A stretch of 64,000 nucleotides of DNA from positions 10,029,197 to 10,093,196 of the forward strand of contig OX393565.1 in assembly GCA_947652115.1 (NCBI GenBank). Direction: 5' to 3'. The notes beneath the pieces are model-generated. The model did not search any database, was not told where the DNA came from, and saw only the letters and a list, made by a program, of their open reading frames with translations. Of the stretch, positions 5,528 to 50,222 are shown piece after piece. This DNA is from Blastomussa wellsi (Eukaryota; Cnidaria; Anthozoa; Scleractinia; Plerogyridae). The stretch's first letter is position 1; each line of letters opens with the position of its first letter. Both the position numbers and the translations under genes were made by a program.

Positions 5528-5789
5528 CAGCCAAGGTTGTTTGTAAAAGAAATACAAAAATTCCGCGCTTTCCTCAAATAAACAACCACGCTTCCTTCAA
5601 ACAGTACTGCAACCAAGATGGCGGAAAAAAATCGCACGGAAATGTGAAAAATTTACTCGCAGAGACTCTTGGGAACCAAAGCTCATTACCAGTCCCCCTA
5701 AAAACCTTTTCCGAATCTAGGGTGCCGAGAGGGTGACAATGAAAGTTGCATCCCAGGTGCCAGGCTTTTGACTAAATCTCTTGAAGTTT

Positions 5790-14668: not shown

Positions 14669-14888
14669 GTCGTTTGCCTTTATTGAACAAGAAATTTGAT
14701 TGATGAATTTCTTTATGTCACAAAACGTAACTTAAGTATTAGCAAGATTCCATTCAAATCTGCGTGCTCTACCTTTTCTTTTCTCTTGAAACGAACGGAT
14801 CCTTTCTTTTTTCAATACATTTCAGTATTTAGCTCGTTCTAAATCATCTCCATTGCCGCTGGACTATGTTTCATTCAATGCACTGGAA

Positions 14889-25969: not shown

Positions 25970-26022
25970 TTTATTTTGTTGTGCGCAAATTTTCAATTGA
26001 AAAATAACAGGGAAAAAAGAAA

Positions 26023-27480: not shown

Positions 27481-27692
27481 AAAATTAACGAACCAAACAG
27501 CCATCCTTCCAATCCTATTCACAAAGCAGCCACAGCTGAAAGCAAAAAACCTGCTGGCAAAACTCCAGCAACAGAAGAAGTGCAAACAGAAGAACCAGTG
27601 CCCGTGGTTGGCTCCGGCAGACATCACGATAATAAAACAGCTGTCGCTGTTGGAGCGGTTGCAGTTGCGGGGCTGGCATTCTTGGCATTGGG

Positions 27693-29019: not shown

Positions 29020-29059
29020 TGTCTATTGAATAAAAAAAATTTTCTGTTTAATATACAAA

Positions 29060-30272
29060 ATGGCAGTGCAAGCAAACCTTCGTCCAACACACAGCGAAAA
29101 AAATCCCGGCACGATGAAAGCCGAGCGCACGGTCAAGCGCATCACCTTTGATCGTAGCGAAGCCAACCCTGGCGAGACCCTTTTTGTTTACGTGCCCAAA
29201 CTGAATGAGCACGAGGTCCTCGTTCCAGGCTCTCTCGGACTGCTTTTCAACATTGACCTGTCTGGAGGGCACCTGGACAACTTCCTCTTTCAAAACGTCA
29301 CACGGGCTCTTGTTGACAAGATGGCTGTGAAGTACGCTGGAGAGACACTGCAGCACACGGTGAATTATGACATCTACAAGATCTGGGAGGACCTTTTCCT
29401 CTCGCAGGAGGAGCGGGACAACATCCTGCTCGAGGGCATCCAGACTGAGGACCTCTGCAAGATCCGCTCAGGCGCGGGAGATAAAAAAACCTCAGGTGTT
29501 GACGTGGAAAACGCACTAGCCAAAGTTTACGGAACAAAATACCGGATCCGACTGGACCACCAGATCCTGAAAGACCACGGAGTATTTTATCTCCAAGCTC
29601 TTTTTCACAACCTCGTTTTTGAGCTGAAACTTGCACCAGCTTCACAGGTTGTCAAAGGCTCTGATCCAGATAAACTAAAATATAAGCTTAAAAACATCCA
29701 GCTTGAGTACGAAATGATTAGAAGCAAGACCTTGGCAGACGAGGCAAGCAGTGTTTACTCCGCGGGAAAGGAGTTCTTATACGACCATGTTATGCGGGAT
29801 CAGGTGGTCACCTTTTCAAAAACTGCCGACTCAAGGATTAACCTCAGAGTAAATCCCCAGAGAAGGTCCCTGAAAGGCATTCTTCTTCTCTTCATTGAGC
29901 CATACACAGCCGGCACCAGGGATTCAGAAAAGTTCATCAACCCAGACCAGTCTCTGTTACGGTGAATGGCTCGCCCAACATGCTCTACAACAACAGCATC
30001 GAAGGAAAAGATATTTGGGCTGAAGTTGACCGCTTCTTTGGCAAGACAAGAAAATGGATGAATCTGAAAAAGTTCTGGAGCGAAGACAAGTTCGGTCTTC
30101 TGATCGATTTGCGCACAATGGCGGCTCACACAATGCATGGCAGCAGCGCTCGCCTCGTGGACACACAAGATGGGGTTCAGCTCGAGCTCGAGCAAATCTA
30201 AGCGGCTCAGGCAATGTGAACGGTCACGTTTTCGTGATCAGTGACTCGCAAATGAACTGGGTCAGCAATTAG
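29060..30272 (+). pseudogene. Polinton major-capsid-like protein, two frameshifts
   Basis: ATG at 29060, 40 bp downstream of the divergent coiled-coil gene start. The 301-codon first frame contains HLDNFLFQNVTRALVDKMAV, YDIYKIWEDLFLSQEERDN and NPQRRSLKGILLLFIEPYT, which I associate with double-jelly-roll capsid proteins of Polintons and adintoviruses. Near 29950 a short indel moves the reading to the frame of 29962..30201 (NMLYNNSIEGKDIW), and near 30195 another moves it to the frame ending at 30272 (GNVNGHVFVISDSQMN). Full length would be about 400 aa. Assignment rests on motif memory and position beside the packaging ATPase; a structure prediction would decide. Confidence 0.65.
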
Positions 30273-30293
30273 AATCTGTGCAATTCTAATATA

Positions 30294-30840
30294 ATGGATC
30301 CAAACAACATTCCGTTCAACGCTCTAATCATTGGCCCGACAAATTCAGGGAAATCGCAGTTTGTGGTTGATCAGCTCCGCAGTCCTTTCCGCAGCAAGTT
30401 CGAGAACATCGCGCTCATCTGCCCAACATTCGCACATAACAAAACTTTTCATCGTTTCGCTTTGGCTGACCCCTGTTTTTATGTTATCGTTTGCGAACAA
30501 CATGAGGTGGAAACCTGGTTGCTTGTTTTTGGAGGGCTCCAACGCGCTCATAATCCTCGATGACTGCGCTGCCACGAAAGATGTGAAAAAGCACTCAGGC
30601 CCGCTGGTCCAGCTCGCCTTTTCTGTCCGTCATATTGGCATCAGCGTTTGGGTGCTGACACAGAAGATGACCAGCATCACAGCTTCTTTCCGCGAAAACG
30701 TGGCTGCGCTTGTGCTTTTCTATACACCCTTGTGGAAGACTTTACAAGCGGTTTTGAAGATTACGCTGGCGAACTTTCTCGAGATGAGTTTAAAGAATAT
30801 GTTTCGAGATTGAAAAAAAATAAGTTTCGGAATAAAATTT
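30294..30840 (+). pseudogene. Polinton packaging ATPase (A32/FtsK-like), frameshifted
   Basis: ATG at 30294, 21 bp after the capsid-like gene. Walker A GPTNSGKS lies at about residue 14 and LIILDDCA, the Walker B, is at about residue 85 after a first frameshift near 30515; RHIGISVWVLTQK follows. A second shift near 30730 leads to the C-terminal frame (EDYAGELSRDEFKEY). The family drives genome packaging into capsids of Polintons and related DNA viruses. Both ATP-binding motifs survive in sequence but not in one frame. Confidence 0.8.
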
Positions 30841-30875
30841 GTTCGCAATTAAAAAAAAGAAAACCAATATACAAA

Positions 30876-31424
30876 ATGAGTGATTTCGAAGACCTCGTGA
30901 TGACCGATGTTTTTAACTTGCTTGAAGCTGAGCCAACCAGCGCGCCCGACAATGTCTCATTGCAGCCTGATATTGCTGCTCTTCGCGAGCAGTTGGCCAT
31001 GCTGGTTTCGGCAGGACAATCCAAAGAAACCCTCGGCGTGCAACTGTCGCACGATCAGGTCAAACGCCTCTCGGACAAAGATGTTCAGAATTACATCAAA
31101 CGTTTGGAGGCCTTTGAGGGTTCAAAGACATCTGACAGCTTGATCGACAGCTTCATTTTTCTTGTGTCCAAAGCGGTCGGAATGGTCAAAAACATCAAAG
31201 ACAACAAAGTTTATCAAAAACAACTCAGAAACTCCTATTTCATCACGAAAGATCTTACCAAACTGGCCGGTACCATTGCTTTAAAGTTTGGATATTTTCT
31301 CTCAACAGCCAACGCGGTGCTGATCACAATAAAAAATATTGATTGGGAAAGCGAAGCAAAATGGGAAGAAATTATTGAGCATTCCTCACCAACTGCTGAG
31401 CTTTCCTCACCAACCGCTGAATAA
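30876..31424 (+). CDS. Polinton conserved protein, 182 aa, intact
   Basis: ATG at 30876, inside a longer open frame whose upstream part is the ATPase tail. Acidic start (MSDFEDLVMTDVFNLLEAE), a helical middle (LREQLAMLVSAGQSKETLGV, LSHDQVKRLSDKDVQNYIKR) and a hydrophobic segment near residues 140-160 (LKFGYFLSTANAVLITIKN). The C-terminus has a duplicated SSPTAE. No known domain; the gene recurs in this position in coral-type Polintons as far as I can recall. Confidence 0.65.
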   Translation: MSDFEDLVMTDVFNLLEAEPTSAPDNVSLQPDIAALREQLAMLVSAGQSKETLGVQLSHDQVKRLSDKDVQNYIKRLEAFEGSKTSDSLIDSFIFLVSKAVGMVKNIKDNKVYQKQLRNSYFITKDLTKLAGTIALKFGYFLSTANAVLITIKNIDWESEAKWEEIIEHSSPTAELSSPTAE

Positions 31425-31495
31425 TTCCTCAGAAATATTCGACAATTCCTCACAAAAAATTTTTTTATTAAACATATATTTGTTTCCATATAACA

Positions 31496-31935
31496 ATGGT
31501 TGAAGAACAGCAACAGGAAAGCCAAGTAACTTCACAAACTCGGGCCGCAAAGCCTGCCAAAAATCCCAAGCGAGTGGCTGCTGGTAGACTGGTTGCTGAA
31601 AGAACTCGGTTGGCCCGCGAAGCACAGAAAAAAGCTCTCAAGAAAATCTCAAACGAGAATGAAAAAAAATCTGCACCTGATCATGCGCCTGCGCCTGAGC
31701 CATCAGAGCCCGCTGCAGATGATTCCAAAGGCAGAAAGGCACAACTCAATGGATCTCTATCATTGGAATTGGCGCAACGCTTGTAACGACTTATGTCAAG
31801 CGTGAAGACATCAAAGCCTTTTTTCGACCAACTGCACCGGCACCTCCACCAGCACCTGCGCCACAGGTAATGCAAGAATCTCCACCGCAACCCAAAAAAA
31901 GGTCTTCGCTATATGGACTAAAAAAATTCATTTGA
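31496..31935 (+). pseudogene. Polinton basic/TM protein with one frameshift
   Basis: ATG 31496. Lys/Ala-rich N-terminal half (AAKPAKNPKRVAAGRLVAER), then after a shift near 31745 a hydrophobic segment ISIIGIGATLVTTYV and a Pro-rich tail (APAPPPAPAPQ) ending at TGA 31933-31935. Likely a single-pass membrane or DNA-binding structural protein; no family name. Confidence 0.5.
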
Positions 31936-31957
31936 ATATATTTTTGGTGAATATAAA

Positions 31958-32210
31958 ATGCAGAAAATCAACTTAACCCCATTTGGCGATAAGCAGTGCA
32001 GCAGCAACAGGTATTGGCTTATTTTGGTGGTATTTCACAAAGTGTTGCTTTAAATCTATCGTTTGGCTAGCCAAAAATCCTGATCTCGGGTCTGCGGTGG
32101 GAAATGTGGAATATGTGAAAGAGCTAAGTGATCAAGAAAAGATAGAGTTACTTGGGGAAGTGATAAAACTACTTGAGGAAAGCAAAGAAAAAAAATTTCC
32201 AATTAAATAA
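31958..32210 (+). pseudogene. Polinton small membrane protein, probable frameshift at start
   Basis: An ATG at 31958 reads eight plausible codons, then needs a one-base shift near 31980 to enter the long frame with ATGIGLFWWYFTKCCFKSIV (hydrophobic) and an acidic-basic tail ending at TAA 32208-32210. The long frame alone has only a TTG start at 31983. Confidence 0.4.
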
Positions 32211-32232
32211 TTTTCCCTTATCTATAACCAAC

Positions 32233-32454
32233 ATGTCTGACAACAAGCTCGTCAAAATCGTCCTGGATTCCGCTACCTTCGTCGGCCTCGCTGCTGGTAT
32301 TGGCTGGGTGGCCAAAAAAACGTTCAAGAAAAGTTTTACAGGTGACCCTTCAAATTCTATCGAAAACTACGCAATGTTCACTGCTGTCATGACTGGGAGC
32401 GTTGCACTCAAAAAATATATGGACGACCATAAAATCCTTCCCGCCAGCGTCTGA
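32233..32454 (+). CDS. Polinton small membrane protein, 73 aa
   Basis: ATG 32233 (MSDNKLVKIV) after an A/T-rich leader; two hydrophobic stretches (ATFVGLAAGIGWVAKK and NYAMFTAVMTGSVALK). Intact. No named family; a holin-like or virion membrane role is only a guess. Confidence 0.6.
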   Translation: MSDNKLVKIVLDSATFVGLAAGIGWVAKKTFKKSFTGDPSNSIENYAMFTAVMTGSVALKKYMDDHKILPASV

Positions 32455-32501
32455 AAATCCTTCCGACCAACATTTTGAAAAAATAAATATAAGAAAAAAA
32501 A

Positions 32502-32927
32502 ATGGCAAGTATCGCGATTATGGTTGGTGGGGATGTGTTGAATGCAGCGGCTTTCATTGGCGGAAATTATCTCACAAGAGCTTTTGGAGGCGGCGATAAA
32601 GCTGCGCTTGAAGAAAAAGTGCGGCACGATAAAGCTCTCGAGACGTACCAAGCTGTGTACCCAAAATACATGCGCGACTGCACCAAACTTCTCGACTGGA
32701 TTGTGATGAACGCGCAGATAAAAGAGGAGGCCAAACAGAACTTTACCAACACTGACTATGCTTTCAAACTCTACAGCAAACTGCATCCTGAAGAACGCAT
32801 GTCACTTCAAAAAGAACCCAAGTTTTCTGATTTCTATCAGCCGAGCCAGCAGCAAAAAAATGGTGAACTCGCGTTCGTTGGCGCCGGGGCTCTCGCTCTG
32901 GGCTATGCAGCTTTTCGGTTCCTTTAA
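32502..32927 (+). CDS. Polinton protein, 141 aa, N- and C-terminal hydrophobic ends
   Basis: ATG 32502; Gly/Ala-rich N-terminus (GGDVLNAAAFIGGNYLTRAF), a charged helical middle and a C-terminal hydrophobic end (GELAFVGAGALALGYAAF). Intact. Genes 30876 to 32952 lie head to tail with gaps of 20-70 bp, each preceded by a T/A-rich leader, which suggests individually promoted small genes as in Polintons. Confidence 0.6.
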   Translation: MASIAIMVGGDVLNAAAFIGGNYLTRAFGGGDKAALEEKVRHDKALETYQAVYPKYMRDCTKLLDWIVMNAQIKEEAKQNFTNTDYAFKLYSKLHPEERMSLQKEPKFSDFYQPSQQQKNGELAFVGAGALALGYAAFRFL

Positions 32928-32951
32928 ACTTTTTTTGTCTCCTTTCTTATA

Positions 32952-33926
32952 ATGGATGAAAAACTCGCAAAGATATACTACGGCCCGGGAGGTTATTGGA
33001 AAGGTCTTGCAGCTGTCAAAAAATTATCTGAGGCCGCCAAAGTGTCGGAAGACGCTGCAAAAAAGTGGTTGGTCAAGCAAGCCCTCTGGCAGATTTTCCT
33101 GCCCGCTCCGAGGTACATTCCATTGAGGTGTCCACACCCAATGCAGTCCACCAGGCGGACCTTCTTTTTTTGCCACATGACAAACTGCCCAGAGGCCGCA
33201 AAGTTTTTAAATATGCGCTTACCGTTGTGGACGTGGCTAGCCGCTTCAAAGAAGCCGAACCCCTGACTTCAAAAAATTCCGATGAGGTCGCGCGGGCCTT
33301 TCAAAAAATTTACAAACGTTCACCCTTGGAGTGGCCGCAGGTTGATCCCGGGCGTGAATTCATGGGCGCAGTGACGAAAGACATGGAAAAACACAAAACC
33401 TTCATTCGCCGCGGGCGCCCCGAGATTCACCGCGACCAAGCCATTGTCGAACGTTTCAACCGCACGCTTGATGAACGTTTGTTCGGACACCAATACGCCG
33501 TTTAAATGCGTTTGCCAGAAGGCCAACGGTCTACGGCGTGGGTAAAAAGACTTCCTGAAGTTGTTTTGGATTAACATTGTTTTGAATGACAAGAAGACAA
33601 GCCTTATCGACAAGAAACCTGTGGAAGCAATCAAAGAAAAAGCTGTTTATTCCAAACCATCAACTCCTTATAAAAGGCCAGTTGGAAAGGCTGAAAAAGT
33701 CCTCCCATCTCTTATCAAAGTTCGTTACCTTTATTATCCGGGCGAGCTTGAAGGCGGTGGCGTGAAAAGAGCCACAGATCCAATCTGGTTTTTAATATTG
33801 AAAGGTCTTTTTCCAAACCGAATCAACCCGTTCTCTATTATTTGCACGATGGACCAAAGCGCGGATTTGTGCATGAAGAGCTGCTGGTTGTCCCTCCAAA
33901 CACCGTTCTCCCGCCTACAAACTTGA
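32952..33926 (+). pseudogene. Polinton retroviral-type integrase, broken into three frames
   Basis: Frame 1 (ATG 32952) holds the N-terminal region YYGPGGYWKGLAAVKKLSEA with an HTH-like AAKVSEDAAKKWLVKQALW. A deletion/shift near 33110 leads to frame 2 (to 33505) with the catalytic core: VHQADLLFLP (first Asp), DPGREFMG (second Asp) and AIVERFNRT (Glu about 34 residues later). After a TAA at 33503-33505 and another shift, 33561..33926 gives the C-terminal part (KPVEAIKEKAV, VRYLYYPGELEGG), as in Polinton integrases. The enzyme would insert the linear element through its ends. All three catalytic residues remain, but not in one ORF. Confidence 0.8.
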
Positions 33927-34199
33927 ACAGTGGTCTTTTAAAGAAATAGATGTATTTTGAAAAATGGGAAGTGGACGCAACGGTGTGTTAATTCAAAAGG
34001 CAAATATCAAAAATTTATTCCTGCCAAAAGAAAAACGCTTGTACGAAAACAAGTCTATTCTGCCGACCCTTTAATGGACGGTTTGGATGGTTTGGACCCA
34101 TGCGATGTTGCCCGAGCACTTGGGGTTCATTCAACCCCAAATTCTGACAAATCAAAGCTGCTGCAGCTTCTGTCAAATCAACATCTGCCAAAGCTGCTT

Positions 34200-37099
34200 C
34201 CATCTTGAAAAGTTCAGCTTCTGTCAAATCAAGTTCAGCTTCTGTGAACCCATAAGCTTTTGTATGAATCCCATCGTCCGCTATCCAGCGTTTTGAATCA
34301 AACGCAGACAGTGAAATCTTGTTTACGTGCATGCCATAGATTTGATGACCCTCACTTCGAAGAATGTTCATTCCGTGCCATAGCTGTTTCGCACCAGAAA
34401 GTGTTTCCTTGTACTGTTCATGTTTTATTTGCTTCTTGACCACGCATTTTTTTATGCCCTTTGCTTTTTTGATGTTGTTTTTCGTCCCCCTTCATAATCG
34501 AATACATTTTCGACCTCAGGCACACGTACTCTGAAATCGGCGTTCCGGCACATTCATCCTTCATCTTACCCAAGACCTTTTTATTCTCGTTAGAGTAAAG
34601 TGGATGATCTGCTGGGTAATCACTCGTATCATAAAGAAAATAATTTCTTGCGATGTCTTTGTAAACGTCGTCCGTTTCTATCTCAAGAAGAAGGCTATCG
34701 GTGTCTGTGTACAATAGCTCACACTTTTCACCGTATTGCTTTTTCAACTTGTTGTAGAAAAAGTCGTACATCAGGATTTTGCTGTTTTCGAGGATTGTCA
34801 TGCCCGTGTAATCTGGTTTATTCAGCAGCAAGCGGCTTTTGTGCATGTGGATTCCCGCCATGTCGTTTGTGAATTCTGCAAACCTTGAGTACAAAGGGCT
34901 TGCAACTAGCTTCCTTATTTTATTTTCCTCTGCGCTTTGCACGATTTTTATGTCAACACGTTTTTCCATCGTTTTCCCGAAAACTGAGTTGTTCATGAAC
35001 TTGTACAAGTTCTTTTCAAAGCCGCTCTTTGAGTTTTTTCTGAACTCTGTGTTCATCATGATGTACGGCTCCATCCAACGTTCTTGTTCGAACTCAAGCA
35101 CCCTGTGCACGCGCTTAAGTTTCATTCCCTGGGAGAGATAAAACTGAAAGTTTCTGTAATGGACTACATAGTTGTTTTTGTCTTCTAGTGTCAGCAGCAG
35201 CTTTTTGCTTGGAGGCATTTTAATATCAAGGTCTTTTATAAAACCTTTCTGATAGTCAGACATCTTTTCTTTTTTTACTTCCTTTTTTTCCGGCGCCAGC
35301 AGATAACTGTTGTGCTCCTTGTGCAGTTCTGCGGGATATTCAAGATCAACTTCGAGAATCCACCCATTTCTTGCGTTCTCTTTTTTCTTCACAATCTCCT
35401 GCTCTGTGGGCATAACACGTTTCCATTTGAAATCCCTTTTGGGCAGAGGCTTGCACATTACCCATCCATAAAGATTATTTCCATCGAGATAGGTGATGTA
35501 TTTTTTCGGTTTGCTGGGGTCAAAGTCTTTCAACAACGGATTGTTTGCCTTGGCAAACCTCTTGCTTGCCATTGAGATTCCGCGACGCATTCCCCTTTCC
35601 ACGAAAAGATGCATTTCGAGGTCTGTGAACAGCTCCAACTCGGCTTTTGGTCATTTTCAGGAGAGCGTCCCATGAGAAACCTGACAACGTGAAATAATGT
35701 GCCGGGTCCAAACCGTATTTCTCTGCGCACAGTTTTTGGAAATTCTCGAAAACATCTGCCAGCAATGCGACATCAGTTTTGACATAAAGGTCGTGATAGT
35801 CTCCCAGTGTTTGACACTCAAAAAACTCCCAGACCTTCTGCGCGTGCGCGTATTCCTCATCTGTTAAGTGCTCGTCTGAGAGTTTGCTGTAAAACTTGCC
35901 TTTGTCTGGAAGCCTTGTCTCACTGAATCTTTCCCATGTGTCCATGTATTCGTAAGGATATATTCCTTTTTTATAAAGCAATTCGCTGCCATTTGATATA
36001 CTCGATGTTATTTTCAGACACTCCTTGGAAGTTGCAAAGACAACTGCATCAAGGCTTGACAGCAGAAAGTTCAAGCTGTCTATGAAATGCATACTTCCCA
36101 TTGAAAATGTCATGTACCTTTCCATGTTATTAGCGATGCATTTCATTTCTTTCTGCTGCTGAGACATCGCTTGCATAAGGTGATGTGCGTCATATCCTCT
36201 GAGATTGTGAAATACGGTAGGAATTGGAACTGTTTTGGGTTTTATTCGCATTTTGAAATTGCACTCGTTATGCGCAGCTCCTCGGAACCTGCCTGTGATG
36301 TGGCAGTGGTCTTTTACCGCGTCTCTATAATTTTTTACAATCAAAGGTTCTGCGCATAACAAACACATTTCCTGATTTTTTGCAATCCATTCCCCGTTTT
36401 TATCTTTTATGTCTTTTATTGTTTTTAGACTTATGAGCTGAATTTTTCTATTTGCTTCGCAATAACAGCTTATGTGACTTTGACCACAATATTTATCTGT
36501 TGCATTGTTCCAAACCGGTAATGAATCGAAAAGAGGATCAAGATCTTCTGCACAGAACAGACACGTTTCCTGAGTTTTTGTTATCCATTCGTCAATTTTG
36601 TCTTTTTTGCCTAATGAAAGCTAATTCTTTCTGCGCTTTGTAAAAGCATTTTTTGTGGCTTTGACTGCAATAGTTGTCTGTTGCAAACCAAACCAATCTG
36701 AACTGGTTTTGGTGTGGTCAAACTTTCTCTTATTGCCACCTCTTCCTGTAGAATGTCACTAAGAAACGCTCCCACTGCATTTTTGCCCCTATATACTTTT
36801 TGTCCTGTAATTTTCCCGTCACTTCTCACAACCATATACGCATAGCCACTTGCTTCGTGCCATTCTGTCTTCTCCCTGAAACTTTTTTGCTTGCTCTCCG
36901 GTCCGCGAGAACAGCTTGGAATCTTTTTAACCAAAGCCTCAAAGTCCGCGTATATCACGTATGGCGCTTTCATCTGTTTGTGGTGATTTTTGAATGAAAG
37001 TATGTTTTTCCCTTCTTCAGGCATCTCGATCCTTGTAGGCCTGCCATTAACTCCGTTACAATATTTTTTATGATCCTCGAGCAAATCCACTCGTGAGAA
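34200..37099 (-). pseudogene. Polinton DNA polymerase B, main part
   Basis: Protein-primed type-B polymerase (DNA_pol_B_2). From N to C on the minus strand: exonuclease motif VIYADFEALVKKI (about 36965), a Cys/His region with two copies of a CxxC-type unit (36370-36690), DHCHITGRFRGAAHNECN, VFHNLRGYDAH (Exo II), then palm motifs YLDGNNLYGW (motif A), NLYKFMNNSVFGKTME (motif B) and LLYTDTDSLLLEI (motif C), and a C-terminus ending in LTEAEL-type repeats near 34220. Frames change near 36640, 35640 and 34450, so it is inactive. The N-terminus lies at 44194..44402, across the inserted transposon. Confidence 0.85.
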
Positions 37100-37113
37100 A
37101 CCTGTTATTACCT

Positions 37114-37168
37114 TTCTCAGTAACACGTGCAGTCTCGATGCCAAAACTTGTTTTTTGTACACGTTTCC
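37114..37168 (+). repeat. left terminal inverted repeat of the two-gene element
   Basis: Pairs with 44132..44199 as reverse complement (52 of 55 aligned bases plus a 13-bp gap). It ends 64 bp before the transposase ATG, so it probably holds the promoter. Confidence 0.88.
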
Positions 37169-37231
37169 ATGACGACCACTGCCTTCTTGACGACTCGGTT
37201 CCGCCATTTTGAATAGTTCGGATAATAAATT

Positions 37232-40086
37232 ATGGTCAAATCGTTCCCGAGCACTTTAAGATGGCGCATTTTAATGTTGAAAGCTAATGGCTTGACCAAC
37301 AAAGAGGTAGCTCAAACACTGCATGTGAGCGAAAGGTTTGTTTATAAGGTCAACCGATTGTATGCTGAAACATTGGATGTGAGCGATCCCCCGAGGAGAA
37401 AGTCCAAACAAAGACTACTAACAGGTAATCGTGTACTGTATAAGCATTTCGTAAGATAGCGAGACTATAGTAAATACACAGAATTCTATTTGTATTCTCT
37501 AGCTTCAGATTTGCTCATATTACGAAGAACAATAGAAAGAAACCCCGAGCTTTACCTCGACGAGCTTCAACAATGGATGCTTTTCGCAACAGGCGAATTG
37601 TTCTCTGTGCAGACAATAAGCAGATGCCTCAAACAAATGGGTATGTCGGTAAAAAAGGTACGTAACCGGATCATACTTTGAATCCTAGGACAGCCTCCGT
37701 TGCTTATTTATCTTATGGCCATCTCATGCGTTTTTTCCTTTATGCTATCAACTTTAGATGCAAATTTTTGCCCGAGAAAGGAATGAGCTACAGCGAGCAG
37801 CCTACAGAAGGTTTATTTCCCAGTTCAAAGCCGAGCAGTTGCTCTTCCTTGACGAATCTGCTAGAGATGAAAGAACAGTCCAGGTAAACAAAATATGTCT
37901 GCTTTTCTCTCTCTGAAACAGTGAAAGCACCCGATCTTGGCAAAGTCTTGCTTTGTGCCAGTTGTGCCCCGGCTTTGTGGTGGAATGGACTATAACCCCG
38001 GGATATTTCCTGGTGATCAAAACTTTTGAGGCTATAAGCTTAAAATACCTGCCTAAAAAGTTTTGATCGCTAGGAATCCTTTTTGGTAATGATAAGGGGA
38101 TCATGAATGAATGAATGAATGCATGCATGCATGCATAAATGAATGAATGATTATTATAACCTCTAGCAGTGAGACACTGAATAACAGGTTATTGTCAGAA
38201 GGCAATAATTACGTAATAATTAATAATAAATAAGCAAAATTATACATTATTGACACTTAGCATACTTGTTTGTAAGAAATTGTCTGAGATGTTTGTGGCT
38301 GGAGTCCTCACATATAGGCTAGACTGCATTTTGATGGCCACATCTATTATAATCAACATTTATCTGTATGTATCATATAATATTATCTTGCAGAGAAAGT
38401 TTGCCCGGTCCCTTGGGGGAACACGCATATCAAGGAGGGGAAATTTTACACGTGGTACTAGATACAGCGTTCTTGGGGCTGTGTCAGTCAGTGGAATGAA
38501 GTCTTCTCATGTTATTGTTGGCCCATACGACTGACTGGACTTCGAAACTGCAGTGGAAAAATTCATTGCCCCGCTTGTAGGCTCTTTTGCAAAAGGTGAA
38601 CCCTGCTCTGTTGTGGTCCTGGATAATTGTGCCATCCATTTGTCTCCAGAATTTCTACACATGACAAGGTCGAAAGGAGGAATTGTTGTTTTTCTTCCGT
38701 AAGTATGGCCCCGTATCACTACCTGGGGGAGTACCCTATTTGAGTGAAAGCACCTTTGAAAAGTATTGGTCAAATTGATCCATATATCTTTTGCACCCAC
38801 TGATACCTGTCACAAAGAAAATAATGGATACAGTTCTTCCTGAAAACTGCTAGAAAAGCAGGAAACAATCTTTTTTTTCCATGTCCCTTCCTGTGACTGC
38901 TACAAATTGAGGAAGGGGTCATTTATATGGTTTCAGTAAAAGGGTGTTACAATAATCTGTCGAGTGTGACATGCAATACTAATATATAACTCTTTGCTTC
39001 ATTCATAAAGGCCTTATTCCCCTGACCTCAACCCAATCGAGAAGTGCTTTGGGGTGGCAAAGGCATGGCTGAAGAGGCATGCAGATGTATGTGCAAGATA
39101 CCCAAAGAGATGCTTTGAAATGGCATTGTTTGATGTATGTGTACATAAGCAAACTCATTCTAGGATTTTTGGGGTGATTTTCAAAATGGCCAGTTACAAG
39201 AAGTTCCTGGGGTGACTTATTATTCGAATAGTTTCCAAAGTGACAATTACTCAGAACCCGGGGTGGGTGCTGAGGCTCAAATTGGGTAGGCGTGATCTGC
39301 CGAGGCTCTGAAACAGGGACCCTCTTTATGACAGTGAAACAGGCACCAGTAATGAAGTATGAAATATGATCATCATACCACCACCTCAAGATTCACTCAA
39401 TATGATGAGTCTTCGAGCAGTCTTCTCTACTCAGGTTGCAAAACAAGTTTTGATTCAATTTCAGTGAAAATGACTTGGGTGGATAATACGTGCCCCTAAT
39501 TAGCTTCCCAATTATTGCAACCCTGTTTATGACAAAACTTCTCAAAACCAAAATTTTTCTCCTAAAAATAGTATTCTGTTTATGGCAGGAGCTGCCCCTT
39601 CCTGACCGGCAGATCACCCCTGTATAGTCAATTGGGGACTGCCCCCCTCTCCCCCCTGGACTCTGAACTTATTTGTATTGCATCCCAAAGTGGAAATTAC
39701 CTAAGGCCCTGAGATTTCATACATTTTCTTTGATGCCACAACAAGATTGCAAAATGAAACAAAAGACAGCCGAGTGTGCATGCTGCAATATGCAATAATT
39801 TTATCAAGTGTCTTCACATCGTATTGAGAAGCAGGTGCATAGTGGTATAAATTGTTTCTATGTGTTGATTGGCTATCATTTAATAATATTGAAGCCCCTC
39901 AAAGAGAATTCTTAAAATATTTATTATTTATCTCTTTTTATTGTTTCAGTCTTACAATGTTGTACACTTGTAACTTGGATGATTCTACACAACTATTATA
40001 ATGTCTTCATTCTAAGATGCTATCCGTATTTATCTTTTCAGATATCTGATGATGGGTGTGCCAACATATTTCATGACTGTGGATAA
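37232..40086 (+). CDS. six-exon Tc1/IS630-type transposase (DD34E) with one in-frame TGA
   Basis: Exons 37232..37424, 37509..37657, 37758..37883, 38394..38698, 39011..39134 and 40042..40086 have GT/AG borders and compatible phases, giving 313 codons plus stop. An HTH (MLKANGLTNKEVAQTLHVSE, residues about 15-35) and a linker precede the DDE_3 core: LLFLDESARDERT (first Asp, exon 3), VVVLDNCAIHLSPEF (second Asp, exon 4) and PYSPDLNPIEKCFG (Glu, exon 5) with 34 residues between the last two. The final exon encodes DDGCANIFHDCG, a usual Tc1-like C-terminus. TGA at 38532-38534 in exon 4 is the only lesion; a single base change may have caused it. Introns in a Tc1-like transposase are unusual. Confidence 0.8.
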
Positions 40087-43000
40087 CCCCCTTGCCTTTA
40101 ATCTATATATTTCTGGCACTAGCACAAGGCAATCTTCTTCTGATATTCCAAGAGACAGCATAAGCTCTTTTCCAAACTGTGGATGTACGAATGCATCTAG
40201 CATTGGGCCATCAACTGAATGCTCTGTGAAGATGTTGCTATACTTAGCTAACCCAACTGAGTAAATCACAGAGAGGCAATCAGCTGTTGTCATATTGGTT
40301 AAAGCTGCAAAAAATAGAAGTTTGCAAATGACCTACAGTATCTATGCCAACACTGCACCAATGTTGGTAATGATATATTTTATTTTATTTAATGACATTA
40401 TTTTCTCTGGTAGAGGGGTGCAGAGGTGTGCCTGGGTATTAGTTTTCAGAAGAAGTTCTATTGAGATTGCCAGCTTTTTAGCTGTTGTGATGAAAAAGTG
40501 CCAGCTAATATGTATATTATATGCATTCGTGTCACTAAGTACCTTTGCTTGCAGAAGCACTGGCTTGGGTTGGCTGGGTTGGTTGGAATCTTGGTATCTG
40601 TTGTCAAAACAAACGTTTAGTTGCAAGATATGTAACATAATAATAATAATATAATATTAGTCTTTATTTACTCAAAAGATAAAAAAATTCATTACATGTA
40701 CATACATTATGTAATCCCCTCACAAAAGGGAGTTAAAATTTCCAGAGGGGATCTGGGAGGCCATGGGTTGTTGAGGTTTAACACCCCCTCATAGGAGGGG
40801 ATATGGATATTTTCTGATTTTATACATTGTGATTACCTGTAATCCTGTTGATCCACATGCACCTTGAGCAAGCATCATCATTAGAAGAGTCTCTAGTGTG
40901 CTGGGGGTTGTTGGGACTGGGTTGGTCTGACTTACAGTGTTTCTCTGTGGTTGCTCCTTTGGAGATCCTGACAGGCGTTTTGATTTTGGTGGAACTGTAA
41001 TGGCTTCAATGTGTTTTGTCCAGTCAGGTTCCTCATTTATCCCTGAACTGTGTCCATTAAGGATGTCATCAGTCCAAAGTTTTAGGTGCTTTGTGTTATA
41101 GCGCCATAAAGAACCACGTCTTTCGAGGTCTCTCACCAAATGCACATGGGTTTGGTTCCAAGTATCGTTCTCTTCCTTGTTTGCTGAGCTGGATGAACTC
41201 ATGTCAAGTCGTCTCTTTCTACTTCCCAATGGGGTTTCGTTTGCTTCTATGTTGTAAACAAAATACCAAGCATTATACCATTATCGCCTCTGTTTTCTTT
41301 GTTTTTCAAGGGACATTGACTAGCTAAATTTCCTGATTATAAATGCCAGGAAAATTAAGTAGACAAAAGATTCTTTTGCCTTTTACTAAATTTCCCTTGC
41401 ATTTATAATCAGGGAAATTTTGAAGCCAGAAGATCTTGCTTTCAACATATCTTCTCCTTTACTTTTTTGGGGAGAAAGCTGAAGACAAGACCCTTTTCCT
41501 CTTGGCTGGGGTGAAGCTGATTACCACCTGCGACTATCTTGGTAACTGCCCAGAGCTAGTGATCAAAGTTCGAATTATTTCCTTGGCGATCATAGTATTA
41601 CAAACTTATAGCGTGGCAACTCAGGGCATTTAGTGATTAAATTCTTCTCAATCCTCGGAAGGCGTCGGGACTTCCACAAATCATCCCTCGGCTTGCTGAA
41701 ATTTAATCACTAAATGCCCCTGGTCCCATGATATAACTTATGATAAAAGTCCCATAATGGGAGCAGGATCAAAATACCAAGCATAGTAGAGACTTTTAGT
41801 TGGGGAAGGGTCATGCTACCCCCAGATTTGTGTACGAAAAGCCCCTCATTTTCCTGATGTACATTTTTCTTTACTCAGCGCCAAGGAATTTTTCAGCCCA
41901 CAAGAAACAAAACATGATTCTAAAACATGACCTTGAAGTGCAAACATGCTTTATTGCAACTCTGACACAGAGAATTCCAAATGTGGCCACTTGAAAAATG
42001 TGGATAACACATATGCAAATCAGTCAGAAATGAGTTGACATGATGCAATAATTATTATATAGATCCACATTTTTCAAGTGGCCAGATTTGAAATTCTTTG
42101 TGTCAGAGAGTATCACATGAACTATGCTTTTTGCAATATAAAGCATGTAAGCTCGGAGATATGGAAGCTTGGAGATATGGAATTTATATCTTCTTGCATA
42201 ATTCACTCATGAGATATCCAATTTGAACACTAACAAATCCATAATAATAGTTATTCCCTAATGAATGCCCCCTTATATAAATTCTAAAATATGACAAGAC
42301 ATTGTAATTTCTATCAATTCAAAGTGAATACTTTATTAAGTTTTTTTTTTTTAAACCGTGTAGCCAGGCTAGGGGGGTGGCCTGGCAATATCATGGAAGC
42401 CTGCGAAGCAATATGCCTTTTGGGTAGTAGCATCATTTTGTGTAATGTTTGAAAGAAAATGCAAACAGCAATTCAACTCACCTATTGGCTGGTTTATATT
42501 TATGGAAGTGCATGCCAATCGCAGACTCTGGCCTTTGTATTCAGCCTTGCACAGTTCCAGATCCTGGTCAGGCTCAGGCTCACTGGCTGCTTGCCTCGCT
42601 TTCGTAACCAGTAAAGACCACTGGCTGGATTATACAGAACATTGGTGCACTCAAAAGCCTTCAGGAGAGTAGTGATCTCTTTTACATCCGCACTTTGGCT
42701 CACATTATGAACTACATTTGAAGTGGTGCTGACTTTCATATCTTTGGTGATTTCATGCACAAATATGTCATAGGTGCTGTCCTTCTGTTTGATTCTCGGT
42801 GATCTTCTAGGGGTTGCAGCTGCTGTCGGAGCTGTAAGGAAATTCCATTATAATAAACCTATTACCCACATTTCAGAGGTCTAACTAGAGCTATATGACT
42901 GTGAAACACTTATGGCATAGTCTACAACGTAACAGGTGGTGCTGTGTCTTTTCGTGTGTTGGCTAGTATTTGTAACTGGTTAGGAGAAGGTGAGGTTCTG

Positions 43001-44113
43001 TACCACACCATGACCATACAGTAACCAGTTTTTTTTTTTCACAGTCATATGAAAAACGCCAACAAGAATACAGACATTGTAGCCAGAGGGAGTTGCCATT
43101 GGTTAATGTTTAGCAATTTTTTGATATTTTCTTTAATAATGGTTTATCTCTGATATTTTACAGGTGGAACATTATCGTGTGAATAATTATTTCTTGCATA
43201 AAATAAAGATAATAATTTTCCCAAACGAAATTGCCCATTATTTTTGCAGCCTTCAAAATTGTAGTATTTTCACTAAAATTCTATTCTTCTGTCTGTTTGA
43301 GATATCGTAATTCTTTATACTTTTCATACGCGTATCAGTGGGTTCAAAAGTTCTTTAGCCTATCTTTTTTTTTTTTCAATCTAGCCACTCTGTTTTGTAG
43401 CAGGGATCAGTCCCAATAAAGTTTAGAAGAAACTAATAGAATAAATGGGTGGTTACTGCCCGTTTGGTGATAGATAATTAGACCATGAGACATGACAAGA
43501 TGTATTTTTACCGTGTTTGTGGTAATCAATCGCGAGATACATTCTCGCTCGCTTGGTACCGTCTTTTTGTATCATCAACGGATATTCCGACAGAAGAGAT
43601 GATACATCTCGGTCGTCATTCAGCACGACCACTGTTTTACCCCGACTTCTCCTGTAGTATAATTGATTGATGACCATCTCCTCGACGCTGCCAGCGTCTG
43701 TTCTCCGCGCCATGTGGTCTTTGATACAATGGACCAGCGTTTCGTAAGTCCACCTGTATGGGAGTTCAAAAGGGGGTAATTCCGCGCCAGCGACTTTGCC
43801 CTTGTTTACACTCAGATACAAAACAACTTCCCTCTGCAAAAAAACAAATCAACGAAGATTCAAATTGTCGTAAATTGATGAGAGCACTCGAGTAAAATGC
43901 TTGACACGAAGAGCGCACGTGTTATCTGTCCAGTGAACTTACAGTTTCATCCCTGTTTTGCATGATTTGGGTTTCCTCCGTATCTGGTAGCTCGATGGGA
44001 ATAACTTCAGTTCCTTCGCTGTCAAGTTCTGTGAAATCTGAACCTTCAGGGTATGCGAAGTCCTCTAGAAACGCTTGGAAAGGTGAAGGACGCGAAGCCA
44101 TGTTCTGAGCCAA
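40030..44113 (-). CDS. multi-exon accessory gene of the two-gene element, C-terminal SAM-like domain
   Basis: Exons on the minus strand: 43943..44113 (acidic start MAQNMASRPSPF), 43512..43833 (with KTVVVLNDDRDVSSLLSEYP, somewhat PB1- or ubiquitin-like), about 42500..42831 (TPRRSPRIKQKD and AFECTNVLYNPASGLYWL), 40837..41246 (basic start, then LVRDLERRGSLWRYNTKHLKLW) and 40030..40332 (VGLAKYSNIFTEHSVDGPMLDAF, SAM-like, stop TAA 40030-40032). Phases agree at joins 1-2, 2-3 and 4-5; the 3-4 join is unresolved and may hide another exon. SAM domains self-associate, so the protein could multimerise at the element's ends or bind the transposase (inference). Alternative: a captured host gene. Confidence 0.6.
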
Positions 44114-44131
44114 CTGTAGAGGCAGTGCAGT

Positions 44132-44199
44132 GCAAACGTGAACAAAAAACGAGTTTTGGCGCGCAAGTTTTTAATCGAGACTGCACGTGTTACTGAGAA
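44132..44199 (-). repeat. right terminal inverted repeat of the two-gene element
   Basis: Reverse complement of the left repeat, with 13 extra bases in the middle. The accessory gene's first ATG (44111-44113) is 19 bp inside it. Confidence 0.88.
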
Positions 44200-44402
44200 C
44201 GAGCATAAGCAAAACATGCAGTAGTGCTTTGCGTTGCGGTTTTTGGTCTGATCGAACAGTAAAGCGGAAACCTGTTTTACATAACAATAGTGTTGTTTTT
44301 CCTCTGACTCTATCAACATCAAGCTTATCCTTTCTAAATTTCTCTCTTTCTCACTTATCCTGTGGACTATAACACAGTTCTTTTCCCAACCAAATACATT
44401 TG
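44194..44402 (-). pseudogene. Polinton DNA polymerase B, N-terminal part
   Basis: Minus-strand frame with NVFGWEKN near 44396, ISLMLIESEEKQHYCYVKQV and, at the border, KHYCMFCLCSF, the paired-Cys segment that precedes the exonuclease domain in Polinton polymerases. It runs in frame up to the TGAGAA at the insertion border, and the remaining polymerase starts at the opposite border. Upstream the frame dissolves into CA-rich and T-rich sequence, so the true start is lost. Confidence 0.7.
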
Positions 44403-47400
44403 AAGGGGTGAGTGCAAAAGGGTGCTAAGTGTGCTAAGTGTGTGTGTGTTTTTTTTCCCTCAAAAGTGCCTGAATTTTTGCATGTGGTTTTCAATTGAAT
44501 AGAAAAACATCACCATGTATTTTTTTTCGCTGGTTTGGTCTTCGTTTTCGAGAAATAACGTATGCGAAAAACCTCCCATTTTCTGCCGGCATCTTTTGCC
44601 GCACGAGAAACAAAAGAAGTCTTTTGTTTCGCTGAACAATGAAACCAGTGAAGCATCACTTTAACCGCCAGTTGATGGAGCCGAAACCAGAATTACGATC
44701 AAATAAATTAGCCCAAGCTGCTAACAATTGCTTTGTTGGCGCAAGCGATCTACGCGCTGCTCTGCAGGCCAGTCATCGTTTTTCTAGGGGGTTGGTTCGA
44801 CACCACCTCAGGCCGAATGTTTTTCTTTTCGCGTTCTCTTGCCTCTTTTTTTTTAAACCAAAGCACCCTTTCCAAGAACCCGTGCTGGCGATACTGCAAA
44901 TAGAAAACGTTTTCAAGTTCGTATTTAAGGCCACCTTTGATTAGTGTAAAGTAGTTATGGAACCGAAACAAGCGTGTAATAAACATGTAAAATTGCCTCC
45001 CATAACTAACGCTGCTCAGTTGGCGCAAGCGATTAACGTGCTTCGCCGCACGCAAGTCAAGACTATGGCACTAGAGTACTGGAGGATAGTTCGACGTCAC
45101 GTCAATCGACGTTTTTTTTTTGTTATCTCTCCTCTTCTTTTAAAAACATAGGACCCTTTCCCAGAACCCGTGCTGTCGATGCTGCTAAAATTAACCGTTT
45201 TCAAGTTCGTATTTAAGGCCCGGTCCAAATGCCGCTCCACTCATGTGCCGAACCAAACACGATAAAGTTCGACTTTGGAGCATTGCGTCGAACTTCATTA
45301 GGGAACCTCGTGGTAAACAATTTGCGAAGAAAATATGCGTTCTGAATTCAAGAACTCTGTGCAAATCGGAAAGCTGTGGCTTACGCTAATATCTCGCAGT
45401 TACTGGGAAACAAATTCATTCGGTGTTTGTATTTAGACAGGCTTTCTCCTGTTAAAGGGAAATCTCGTAAGCTAAGCTAGTATCACGAAGAAACAGCAAA
45501 AAAAAAAACAAAAGAATTTGCACTAAAGAACCTCGCTCAAACAATCCTGTTTCACGTAAATCGAAGACATGAAGTTTTTTGTTGTTTTTATTTTCAACGA
45601 CGGCTCTGCATGCATGACTGGTCACGCCACTCAATTTTGAGCCAATCACGAGTGCCGTTATATGAAAAATACAGTACAGTAATTTATGCACTAGGTTCAG
45701 CACATGACAACAGCGGCTATGGCGCTGGAATCACCCTCCGCTCGACGCTGCTGAATTTAACATTGTTTGCCGCTCCAAATCTAATCTTCCGAACCAAACT
45801 GATTCAAACGCCGCTCTTCTGCCGTACTTAACTCGTCAGTTAGGTTCGGCGTATGAATGGAACGGCGTGAATTTTTCCTCTTCTTTTTGAAACCAAAACA
45901 TTATAGCCGGCGTACTATGAAGTCCACCTTCGAATACCGGTAATATAAAGTTCCAGAGAAATCGAAATGCCGTACGCATCGTCGATAAACTTCAACGTCT
46001 CTTTTTAATAAAGTAACAACCTGAATCAAAGGCCCTTTGCCTGGGCTGCAACGTTTCACTCGTCTAGCGCAATTTTAAGACAATTTGAAGCTTAATTCTG
46101 TTGTTCGCTTTCTTTCACTGATTGAAAAGATAGTGGTATCAGAGGAATCGGAACAAGTTCCGGATAATTCACGTATTGCTTCAAATTTTTGACTTATGCT
46201 CTCGTGCTAGCCTATGTGCAGGCTACTCTCATACCCGGGTCTTATACTAATGTGACATGTGCACGTTTATACCTAGGCGCGGCTAGTTGAAAATAAAAAA
46301 AAAAATAAATAACTTTATTTAACGAGAGAAAACATTTTACAGTCCTAGACTGAGAAACCTGTGGCCCTCACCTAAATTATAACAAGAAAAAGTTACAATG
46401 AATAGAGTTATCGAATTCTGAACTCTTTTGAGTCTCAGGCTTTACCGCATTACACGCAGCATCGTAAAACGACATCGGAATAAGGCCATTTGTTATTGCG
46501 TGACAATCCCGTCTACACCGCCAGTGAAAATTCAGCGAGATTTACGTTATTGGATTCTACCGACAACCAAACATGAATGATTTCGAAAGGTGGTAAGTTA
46601 CTCACATTGAATCCGTCGATTTAGTGAAGTTAAATTATGTTAATAACGGAGCTCGAAGCCTCTTGTTATAGGAAAGAGCTTGTCTTCGTTTGCTTTTCGA
46701 ATGTATGTGGCGTACTGGAGGTGTTCACTTTCGAGAAAAATGTAAAGCAAAGTAGAAGTTGTATCTCTTGAAGTGACCACTCTCACAAGCGACATCGCGT
46801 TGACCTGCTAACATTTGGCAACCATAGTTCAAGAAGTCGCATTTGAATCCATTCCATGCCGAGCAATGTTAAGTTAAAACTCCTGTCTAAGATTTAAACG
46901 ACGTTTCTTAATAGCCACAAAGCTGGTCCCTAAAGACTAAAACTGGTTGTAACACTGGTAAACTAGCACCATCTTTGGCCGAAAAAAACCGGAAACGGAA
47001 ACGGTTAATTTTAGATTACACAATACCTGAAGAGTGCTACTTTTGTGGAATTTTTCTTTTTAAGCTAAATCAAAAGTTTGCTATAAAATCTGACATTCGC
47101 AAAAATGAAACAAAATCTTAAGACACGCGCGAGCTATTTTGAAATTTAATTTTAATAAGCGCTTCTCCCCCGTATAATCTTTTTGCACAACTTTTAGCGC
47201 AAAACGGCTTCCCCCAGTAGCTCTTATTACAAGGGCCTCATTAGCATTTTATGTTTACACGCTATTTTACAGTTGTAGTCTGGAATCGTCTATGCTACCT
47301 ATCACTCCTTATTGAGGTCATGAAACGTGCTACACAGGGAAGGGAAAAGTCCTTGTACACGTACAGCGAAAAAAATTGAAGCATCGAAGAAGACAAAAGC

Positions 47401-48204: not shown

Positions 48205-50222
48205 CCGTATTTACCCGTGTATAATGCGCGCCCATGTATAATACGCACCCTTATTTTTGATCACTTTTTCAAAAAAAAAAGAAAATAAAACAAAGGTAAA
48301 TGATTCCAACTACAACTTTTTTTATTTAATAAACTAGAACTTGAAAATATTCTCCTAGGTATTTACAACAACATCTTAAACTATTTTTAACTTAACTAAA
48401 GGTACAAATCAACGAACGTACCGAGCATGTAAAGTTTACCGGTGTATAAACAGTTTACTCGTTAAAAAGTGTCAAAAACCTACAATGTTTTTACTAAATA
48501 AAACCGACATTTACAACTTATTTTACTATAGCAGCAATTCATAAATGTATAAATCTTTTAGCCTGAATATGTCTACTCACAGAATAGTGCCGGAACGTTC
48601 TGGTAGCTCGTATCAATGTTCAGTGTCTTTACACAACGAAACCTTCAAACTCCGACTCAGAGTCCGAAGCAAACAAGTTTTCGATAAACGAATCGTTAAG
48701 TTCATCAGTGTCCTCGGCTGAATTATAAACTAAGTCATCTTCTGATCCATCCAAATTGTTTGTGATCCCGCATTTCAGGAAAGAGGCGAGGTGATCATTT
48801 CTGTTGGAATGTCATTCCACGCTTTGGAAATCCACGAACAAATCAGTTCCTCTGAAGGCTTCTTTTGTCGTCCACTGGCAGTAAATTCGTGAATTCCATC
48901 GGCCATCCACTGCATCCATTGCTTTCGGACTCCATCTTTAAACGGTTTGTTCAAAGATACGTCGAGTGGCTGAAGAAGTGATGTTAATCCGCCAGGAATA
49001 ACAGCAAGTTCAGTGTTCTCACGTTTGAACGACGCTTTCACGCTCTCTGTCACGTGAGCTTCGAACGAGTCAAAAACAAGCAGGCTTTTTCTCCTTCCCA
49101 GGCCACCGCTCCGCGAACACCACGCTTTTTCGATCCAAACTTTCATCTGCGCTGAATCCATCCATCCTTTCTCCTGTGCAGAAACAACGACGCCGTGTGT
49201 GTTGTTAATTTTAGGAATAGTTTTCCTCTTGAAGATAACCATCGGTTTAAGTTTTGAACCATCGCCACAGCACGCCAGTACGACTGTCACTCGATTCTTT
49301 TCATTACCCGTGGTGCGGATTTTGATGGTTTTCTCGCCCGTGTTGTTGATCGTACGGTTTGGTGGCATGTCAAATGTTAGTGGAGTTTCATCCATGTTAG
49401 CAATGAGATGTAATGGGTAGTTGTGTCCTTTACGGCGATCAATGATGAAGCGATGAAATCGTACGATCTTCTCCTCGTAATCGTCTGGCAGACGCTGTGC
49501 TAAGGTTGTTTTCTGTCAAAGTGACAGACCGTTCCTCTTCATAAAGCGTTGGCACCAGTGATTTCCAGCTTTGAAATGTCCTTCGGGAATCCCGTACTTC
49601 CCGTCCTTTGCAAGTTCGAGGGCTTTCAGTCGAACAAGCGATGGCAGAATGGCAAGCCCGTTGTTTCGTTTCTCAGTTATCCAGGCCAGTAGATCGACCT
49701 CCAACTCCGGCCATGCAGCTTTCTTTCCTCGGTTCGCACGCTTCAGTCGAGGCATCTTCTCGAGGTTTTCTTTGCTTTTTCGCCACAGCCTGACATTACT
49801 TTCGGAAATGCCAAACTCCCGTTCTGCAGCACGATTGCCATTTTGCTCTGCAAACTGGATGATTCTTAATTTGTCGGACACAGTGTAGCTTTGACGTTTC
49901 GCGGTAAGTTTCGTAGCCATGTTGAAGTTGTGATCGGTCAAGTGACAATCTCACATGTTGTTTTCCTCGAACAGCTGTTTCTTAAATAGTCAGTTAATTT
50001 AATTCAAGGATCGAAATTGACAGCTTTTTATTGGTAGTTCATTTCACGGAGTTTATTAAAAGTCAATTACAACGAAGCTTTTGTGTTGTTTTGTTTTCTC
50101 GTTTATCATTCATATGCTAATGAGAACATGACCAAACAATGGGTTCCGTGTATAATACGCACCGCAAATTTTATGGTCATTTTCACGTAAAAAAAGTGCG
50201 CATTATACACGGGTAAATACGG
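48205..50222 (-). mobile_element. pogo/Tigger-like element, 2.0 kb, TA target duplication
   Basis: Ends are 25-bp perfect inverted repeats starting CCGTATTTACCCGTG, flanked by TA at 48203-48204 and 50223-50224. Sub-terminal GTATAATACGCACC words occur at both ends. It encodes a CENP-B/pogo-type transposase on the minus strand. Confidence 0.92.
48629..49920 (-). pseudogene. pogo-type transposase, one nonsense and one frameshift
   Basis: Start taken at ATG 49918-49920 (MATKLTAKRQSYTV); an ATG seven codons earlier is possible. An N-terminal psq/BrkDBD-like HTH (VSDKLRIIQFAEQNGNRAAE) and a CENPB-type HTH (WPELEVDLLAWITEKRNNGL) are followed by DDE_1: NMDETPLTFD, LLVFDSFEAH and LLQPLDVSLNKPFK, Asp triad intact. 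TGA at 49516-49518 separates the two halves in the same frame, consistent with CGA to TGA; a shift near 48790 displaces the acidic C-terminal tail ending at 48629. Few lesions mean a young copy. Confidence 0.88.

Follow-up and report, generated by a model that had tools for sequence, protein, structure and literature searches.

A two-gene IS630-Tc1-mariner element in a coral genome

An intron-rich, 7,098-bp element in the genome of Blastomussa wellsi carries, between terminal inverted repeats, a DD34E transposase gene and a convergent second gene (gene 2) whose predicted protein combines PB1-like domains with a SAM domain. The element occupies positions 37108 to 44205 of the stretch analyzed here (GCA_947652115.1; OX393565.1:10,029,197-10,093,196, forward strand; 64,000 nucleotides; hereafter, the window). 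Judged by each defining feature tested (profile, DD34E spacing, inverted repeats, and TA duplication), we file it as a member of the IS630-Tc1-mariner (ITm) group with an added, conserved second gene; the best reading is an anthozoan (coral and sea anemone) two-gene branch of that group. We consider it fairly probable that in this two-gene element the second protein self-assembles and acts in trans as a transposition cofactor. Tc1/mariner-type transposons are textbook one-protein mobile elements, and gene-transfer tools in wide use are built on them.

The ends of the element were set by comparison with other copies in the same genome, at C4, C5, and C8:17.58 Mb (C numbers denote contigs; see below). 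At all three insertions that retain both ends (window, C4, and C5), TTA precedes the left end and TAA follows the right end, and the right end at C8:17587377 is likewise followed by TAA. These flanks indicate TTAA as the insertion site and TA as the duplicated sequence (37106 to 37107 on the left, in a context identical at C4 and C5; 44206 to 44207 on the right, in a context identical at C4, C5, and C8:17.58 Mb). TA duplication is the hallmark of the ITm group. A preliminary description of this DNA had placed the ends at 37100 and 44193, which the other copies correct to 37108 and 44205. A 6-bp TGAGAA site duplication that fits those earlier coordinates was rejected: it rested on one copy, and the copies at C4, C5, and C8:17.58 Mb place the ends outward of that candidate, at TA.

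The terminal inverted repeats (left, 37108 to 37184, plus strand; right, 44120 to 44205, minus strand) match at 63 of 66 aligned bases, in an alignment that contains a 13-bp gap and two minor gaps; the outermost six bases of the left repeat are unlike those of the other end. This recomputation upholds the long repeats described earlier (52 of 55 bases) and returns the same 13-bp gap. The local score of the pair was 88, against a maximum of 26 among 1,955 random window pieces, and the 22-mer CAGTAACACGTGCAGTCTCGAT occurs twice in the 64 kb when up to three mismatches are allowed, both times exactly (0.00 expected). Hairpin-like inverted repeats also lie within introns of the element (41960 to 42108, 41326 to 41419, and 38007 to 38076) and are perhaps nested miniature inverted-repeat transposable elements (MITEs) that lengthen it.

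The transposase gene

The transposase gene, on the plus strand, comprises six exons with agreeing phases and encodes about 315 amino acids (aa). Exon 1 (37232 to 37424) contains the start codon and a helix-turn-helix region separate from the catalytic region; exon 2 (37503 to 37657) is followed by exons 3 (37758 to 37883), 4 (38394 to 38698), and 5 (39011 to 39134), which supply the first catalytic D, the second catalytic D, and the catalytic E, respectively; and exon 6 (40042 to 40086) holds the stop codon. Protein relatives matched the first five of these six exons by tblastn. They gave no tblastn match to the 45-base exon 6, though the ends of P0003, P0005, P0007, P0010, and P0011 align there, and this exon is placed by those ends and its splice sites. 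The protein matched Pfam DDE_3 (E = 1.6e-22; 80.4 bits, cutoff 28.6) and exceeded the cutoff of the bacterial NCBIfam IS630 profile (143.2 bits versus 100). Thirty-four residues separate the second D from the E, and the third catalytic residue is E (in NPIEK) rather than the D of pogo (DDxD). The six-exon DD34E gene reported in the preliminary description is thus borne out by tblastn and by the ends of its relatives, although the window copy contains an in-frame stop codon.

At each of the five transposase junctions, at least one of 11 deposited anthozoan gene models starts, stops, skips, or differs. Since these models break at the exon borders of the window copy, the introns look shared among anthozoan relatives.

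The window copy is dead, because both of its genes are broken: an in-frame TGA interrupts transposase exon 4 (38532 to 38534), and a frameshift interrupts exon 3 of gene 2 (42569 to 42575). The preliminary description mentions neither lesion. A second copy, on the chromosome that carries the window, reads through at both places: transposase exon 4 has no in-frame stop (C8:17.57 Mb) and exon 3 of gene 2 is a single open frame (C8:17.58 Mb). The two copies therefore do not have these lesions in common, and the gene models hold.

The second gene and its predicted protein

Gene 2 runs on the minus strand from 44101 to 40030 in six exons and converges with the transposase gene; the last exons of the two genes overlap tail to tail on opposite strands. 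As previously described, the gene begins just inside the other repeat: its ATG at 44101 lies 19 bp from the inner edge of the right repeat at 44120. Exon 1 (43943 to 44101) contains the start codon and an ELPDxEETQI motif. Exons 2 (43512 to 43833) and 3 (42482 to 42831) encode the first and second PB1-like domains, and exon 4 (40837 to 41246) encodes a conserved helical core (KHLKLWTD..EEP.W) that in relatives continues as a long helix forming a coiled coil. A linker exon (exon 5; 40543 to 40597) and a SAM domain exon overlapping transposase exon 6 (exon 6; 40030 to 40304) complete the gene. Protein relatives matched five of the six exons by tblastn; exon 5 is placed by its splice borders and frame. 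The relative P0123, encoded on a contig of 2,261 bp, is a single open frame spanning what are separate exons here, a hint of spliced transcription.

The predicted fold of gene 2 relatives consists of two PB1-like domains, the helical core, the coiled coil, and the SAM domain. The PB1 fold was recovered in the predicted structure of the relative P0001, and the gene 2 protein has a SAM domain by both profile and fold, the latter predicted for the relative P0123. The SAM-like partner protein of the preliminary description is accordingly retained, with two PB1-like domains added to it. PB1 domains pair via an acidic OPCA motif or a basic cluster; by eye, both PB1-like domains here are basic at the positions where the OPCA acids would sit. 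The fold neighbors of the SAM domain include polymer formers. From its predicted modules, the gene 2 protein is probably built for oligomerization and self-assembling. In predicted fold it resembles PB1 proteins (MAP2K5, MEKK3, PKC-iota, NBR1, and p62) and SAM proteins (DGK-delta and Polyhomeotic), but unlike these it is a transposon protein that contains domains of both kinds, and by sequence it had no match in the PDB up to E = 1.

Searches for gene 2 in viral_contigs and genome_contigs found 81 and 58 stretches, respectively, that fitted the search pattern and no relatives among them, and the repeat 22-mer had no match in viral_contigs. In BFVD, one of 204 matches had an E value of at most 0.001, a Pandoravirus protein named "ubiquitin-specific protease incomplete domain," which fits at the level of beta-grasp type only.

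Copies and relatives within the genome

We searched the Blastomussa wellsi genome (367.8 Mb, 124 contigs) for further copies, using the gene 2 relative P0123 and the transposase relative P0003; counts from both protein searches are lower bounds, and the P0003 search scored 131 of 180 candidates. At least 15 rows were returned for P0123, all 15 at three loci: the window (4), C8:17.57-17.59 Mb (7), and C1:16.03 Mb (4). For P0003, at least 44 rows were returned, and the 16 with at least 50% identity fell at the same three loci (15) or at the C5 derivative described below (1). The other 28 rows, with 22 to 41% identity, lie elsewhere; 24 of them are open frames of 307 to 415 aa, which is what ordinary Tc1-like elements without introns would give. 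Gene 2 and the DDE exon of this transposase lineage were thus found at the same three loci. Both genes are present at all three gene-bearing loci found, a departure from the one-open reading frame (ORF) rule usual in the ITm group, and among the loci found there was none with gene 2 and no transposase.

The second copy (C8:17570582-17587377) contains the right end, every exon of gene 2, and exons 3 to 6 of the transposase. Its main segments are 98.1 to 99.9% identical to the window (with 12 differences over the 2,435 bases of the longest one), and the element has moved recently. Its left end was not found within the 29.7 kb examined. This copy is also rearranged: its middle (window 38659 to 40839 plus about 550 bp) has been amplified into roughly four 2,727-bp units in tandem.

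Two shorter insertions at TA sites, C4:13539003-13539504 (502 bp) and C5:13102835-13103531 (697 bp), have both ends of the element, about 430 to 640 bp of its left part, and 52 to 60 bp of its right end, and have lost the middle. Transposase exon 1 is kept in both, exon 2 in C5 as well, and gene 2 in neither. The preliminary description had proposed that ends lacking gene 2 would undo the pairing; C4 and C5 are such ends in form, but because both also lack most of the transposase, they are deletion derivatives and not one-gene elements. What they retain hints at the requirements in cis, and their existence implies mobilization in trans. Such short derivatives are possible seeds of a MITE family.

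A diverged relative at C1:16026330-16033216 settles the two-gene question. It contains a convergent gene 2 and transposase inside inverted repeats of its own (108 bp, 91.7% identical; 16026330-16026437 and 16033109-16033216), with gene 2 heading inward from one repeat, beginning about 36 bp inside it, and the transposase heading inward from the other. Its terminal sequence is unlike that of the window element; TTA followed by CTGCGG is readable as a TA duplication in TTAA, with the TTA lying inside the aligned repeats. The C1 transposase reading has an in-frame stop close to the end of exon 1. Hence, the expectation that other copies would share both the ends and both genes held in part: the C8 copy has the right end and both genes (the transposase from exon 3 onward), its left end not being found in the 29.7 kb examined, and C1 has the two-gene layout within different repeats. 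Together with the IS630 profile, these two loci support the earlier account of a 7-kb, two-gene, intron-rich Tc1/IS630-type element. That a one-gene Tc1-like element merely came to lie beside or around an unrelated gene would be suggested by the rarity of two-gene elements in the group and by nothing else; the co-occurrence at three loci, with the same pair inside different inverted repeats at C1, rules this out, and we give it a negligible chance.

Conservation across anthozoans

Gene 2 relatives with a named source (6 of 18 rows) were all anthozoan: Oculina, Exaiptasia, and Actinostola. In Oculina, the locus tags of gene 2 and the transposase follow one another (ACROYT_G033550 and G033551), a further point against chance pairing, and the two contigs have the same length; in Exaiptasia, LOC110250738 (gene 2) and AIPGENE6191 (transposase) lie on contigs of equal length (1,085,662). 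We infer from these tags and lengths that the pair is colocated in both genera. The pairing of gene 2 with the transposase thus holds for two diverged subfamilies within the Blastomussa wellsi genome and, by colocation, for two other anthozoans. One Exaiptasia relative, P0125 (AIPGENE11745), is fused to an N-terminal part that by eye resembles a GIY-YIG retroelement fragment and is probably an annotation artifact.

Among the 120 transposase matches listed of 6,098, the 11 best were all anthozoan, including the octocoral Dendronephthya, in which no gene 2 was seen. The anthozoan transposases and that of the window formed one clade in three trees, with support values of 99 (Shimodaira-Hasegawa-like approximate likelihood ratio, SH-aLRT; 122 rows), 100 (second tree), and 96/94 (28 rows); the trees were built from rows other than named Tc1, mariner, or Gambol references. 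The first tree comprised the 120 listed matches (the 6,098 were obtained among 8,000 scored candidates), the window transposase, and a Tc1-like ORF of the window; the second included 55 non-anthozoan proteins (every second one of 109) and 16 distinct bacterial rows, taken from 17 ORFs of 250 to 450 aa among 71 ORFs from 80 loci; and the third included 16 hand-picked outside rows. One bacterial row on a long branch (L078) fell apart from the other bacterial rows in the second tree.

The C1 element lies near Oculina and Acropora proteins in both genes, and the window element lies farther in both. For C1 gene 2, three main exons are 72 to 78% identical to P0001 and two short matches give 46 and 80%, and the C1 transposase is 69 to 85% identical to P0004; the window copy has 46 to 49% identity to P0001 (69% across 16 residues of exon 1) and 34 to 70% identity to P0004, the lowest match running through an intron. 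Judging from these identities, the two genes diverge together.

These comparisons also bear on whether gene 2 is a passenger, a former host gene that an ancestral element took up on one occasion and that plays no part in transposition. PB1 and SAM domains are widespread in animal proteins, which is consistent with such an origin. However, in two diverged subfamilies the start of gene 2 is close to the inner edge of the inverted repeat (19 bp away in the window, about 36 bp at C1), the domain order of gene 2 is constant across sea anemones and corals, no locus bearing it apart from the transposase was found in the genome, and useless cargo should decay or disappear. We therefore regard a mere passenger as improbable.

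Comparison with known transposons

ITm elements usually have one ORF (PMC8533490). The element described here is like the IS630/ITm group in its IS630 profile, DD34E catalytic region, helix-turn-helix, inverted repeats, and TA duplication; it is unlike the group in having two genes, 10 introns, and a length of 7 kb. Elements of the pogo type measure 1.2 to 5.2 kb, duplicate TA, TAA, or TAAA, and have one ORF or two, in either case for transposases (PMC7386202), whereas a separate partner gene is a feature of the element here. DD34E/Gambol and DD34E/Tc1 share with it the DD34E signature and the TA duplication (PMC7386202), but a second gene is not mentioned for them in the passages of that source consulted, and Gambol is compared by description only. 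DD82E/Sailor also belongs to the ITm group and reaches 6.98 kb but differs in its DD78-111E spacing, its transposase of ~676 aa, and its TATA duplication (PMC8533490), compared with DD34E, about 315 aa, and TA here. The window itself contains an intronless Tc1-like transposase of 374 aa (13610 to 14731; DDE_3, 5.4e-12), unlike the intron-rich one and only distantly related, with 24 to 26% identity to three anthozoan relatives of the latter.

The Harbinger transposase belongs to an unrelated catalytic family, DDE_Tnp_4; the transposase here matches DDE_3, with no DDE_Tnp_4 row in its Pfam scan. PIF/Harbinger is comparable in having two separate element genes, and its transposition needs both (PMC2836001). 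In one reconstructed Harbinger, the ORF1 protein binds the ends and is required for nuclear localization of the transposase; it is Myb-like and binds the ends for a transposase that has no obvious binding domain (PMC2836001). In contrast, the element here pairs a transposase that has its own helix-turn-helix with a PB1/SAM partner. In the titles and abstract openings of the literature surveyed, which excluded most subscription journals and Repbase, we found no description of an element like this one and no PB1 or SAM partner in an ITm-type transposon.

Proposed role of the second protein

We propose that the transposase would bind the inverted repeats and cut and paste at TA, as its relatives do, and that the gene 2 protein would self-assemble through PB1 and SAM contacts. 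The resulting assembly would serve transposition in trans as a cofactor, most likely as a bridge between the transposase and the ends or as a means of positioning the transposase within the nucleus or at chromatin. Because the transposase has its own helix-turn-helix, an assembly role for gene 2 is likelier than a DNA-binding role. The derivatives at C4 and C5 would have moved in trans by the same route, and the division of labor may be comparable to that of PIF/Harbinger, with unrelated parts.

The main rival to an assembly role is that gene 2 shields the element from the host, its SAM/PB1 polymer disturbing chromatin or small-RNA silencing while the transposase transposes alone. The structural neighbors of the SAM domain include the chromatin proteins Polyhomeotic, Scm/Sfmbt, L3MBTL3, and SAMD1, and the transposase possesses DNA-binding and catalytic regions of its own, as this rival would have it; a common SAM fold, however, is no proof of a common pathway, and DGK-delta, Shank, and SARM1 are also neighbors. 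We consider a shielding function unlikely, though less so than an inert passenger, and favor the cofactor role. Going further, the element may represent a scaffold-driven anthozoan ITm branch in which transposition depends on a self-polymerizing PB1-PB1-coiled coil-SAM protein; this arrangement would predate the split of at least two subfamilies, and the branch would be separate enough to be named as a superfamily of its own. We put this forward tentatively, as possible but short of probable.

That a second gene, one for oligomerization domains, has been retained while two subfamilies diverged and in several genera of anthozoans suggests that some ITm element acquired a need for an assembly partner or a way to exploit one. 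The evolution of one-gene transposons into multiprotein machines thereby becomes testable, with a point of comparison from animals for PIF/Harbinger and other two-protein systems, and "hypothetical proteins" in coral genome annotations can be named as transposon genes.

Insertion site and surroundings

When the element and one TA are removed, the Polinton polymerase-like frame that it interrupts runs through the site without a stop, with a zinc-finger-like spacing in the restored frame (C-x2-C-x3-F-x5-L-x2-H-x3-C). The earlier statement that the element lies inside a Polinton polymerase gene is thus supported as to the interrupted frame; the name "polymerase" rests on reading the ORFs, as a Pfam scan of two polymerase-like pieces gave no match. 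The polymerase flank had no relatives among six stretches in viral_contigs. The host of the insertion is a decayed Polinton-like element (25451 to 37105, and from 44208 onward), with an integrase core match (33032 to 33502; rve, 4.8e-05, below its cutoff), a terminase-large-subunit-like match (30328 to 30810; phrog_2666, 4.2e-04), polymerase-like ORFs split across several frames, and an endonuclease VII match within 35523 to 36620.

Other mobile-element sequences in the window include an uninterrupted 589-aa piggyBac-type transposase ORF (3830 to 5596; DDE_Tnp_1_7, 5.2e-90), a DIRS-like region in which a reverse transcriptase ORF overlaps a tyrosine recombinase ORF (7812 to 10861), a pogo-like DDE_1 ORF (48778 to 49515; 1.2e-34), and a DDE_Tnp_4 ORF with HTH_Tnp_4 (58004 to 59368; 3.9e-46). 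Just right of the element, 44729 to 45220 contains two families of diverged direct repeats with copies 284 to 288 bp apart.

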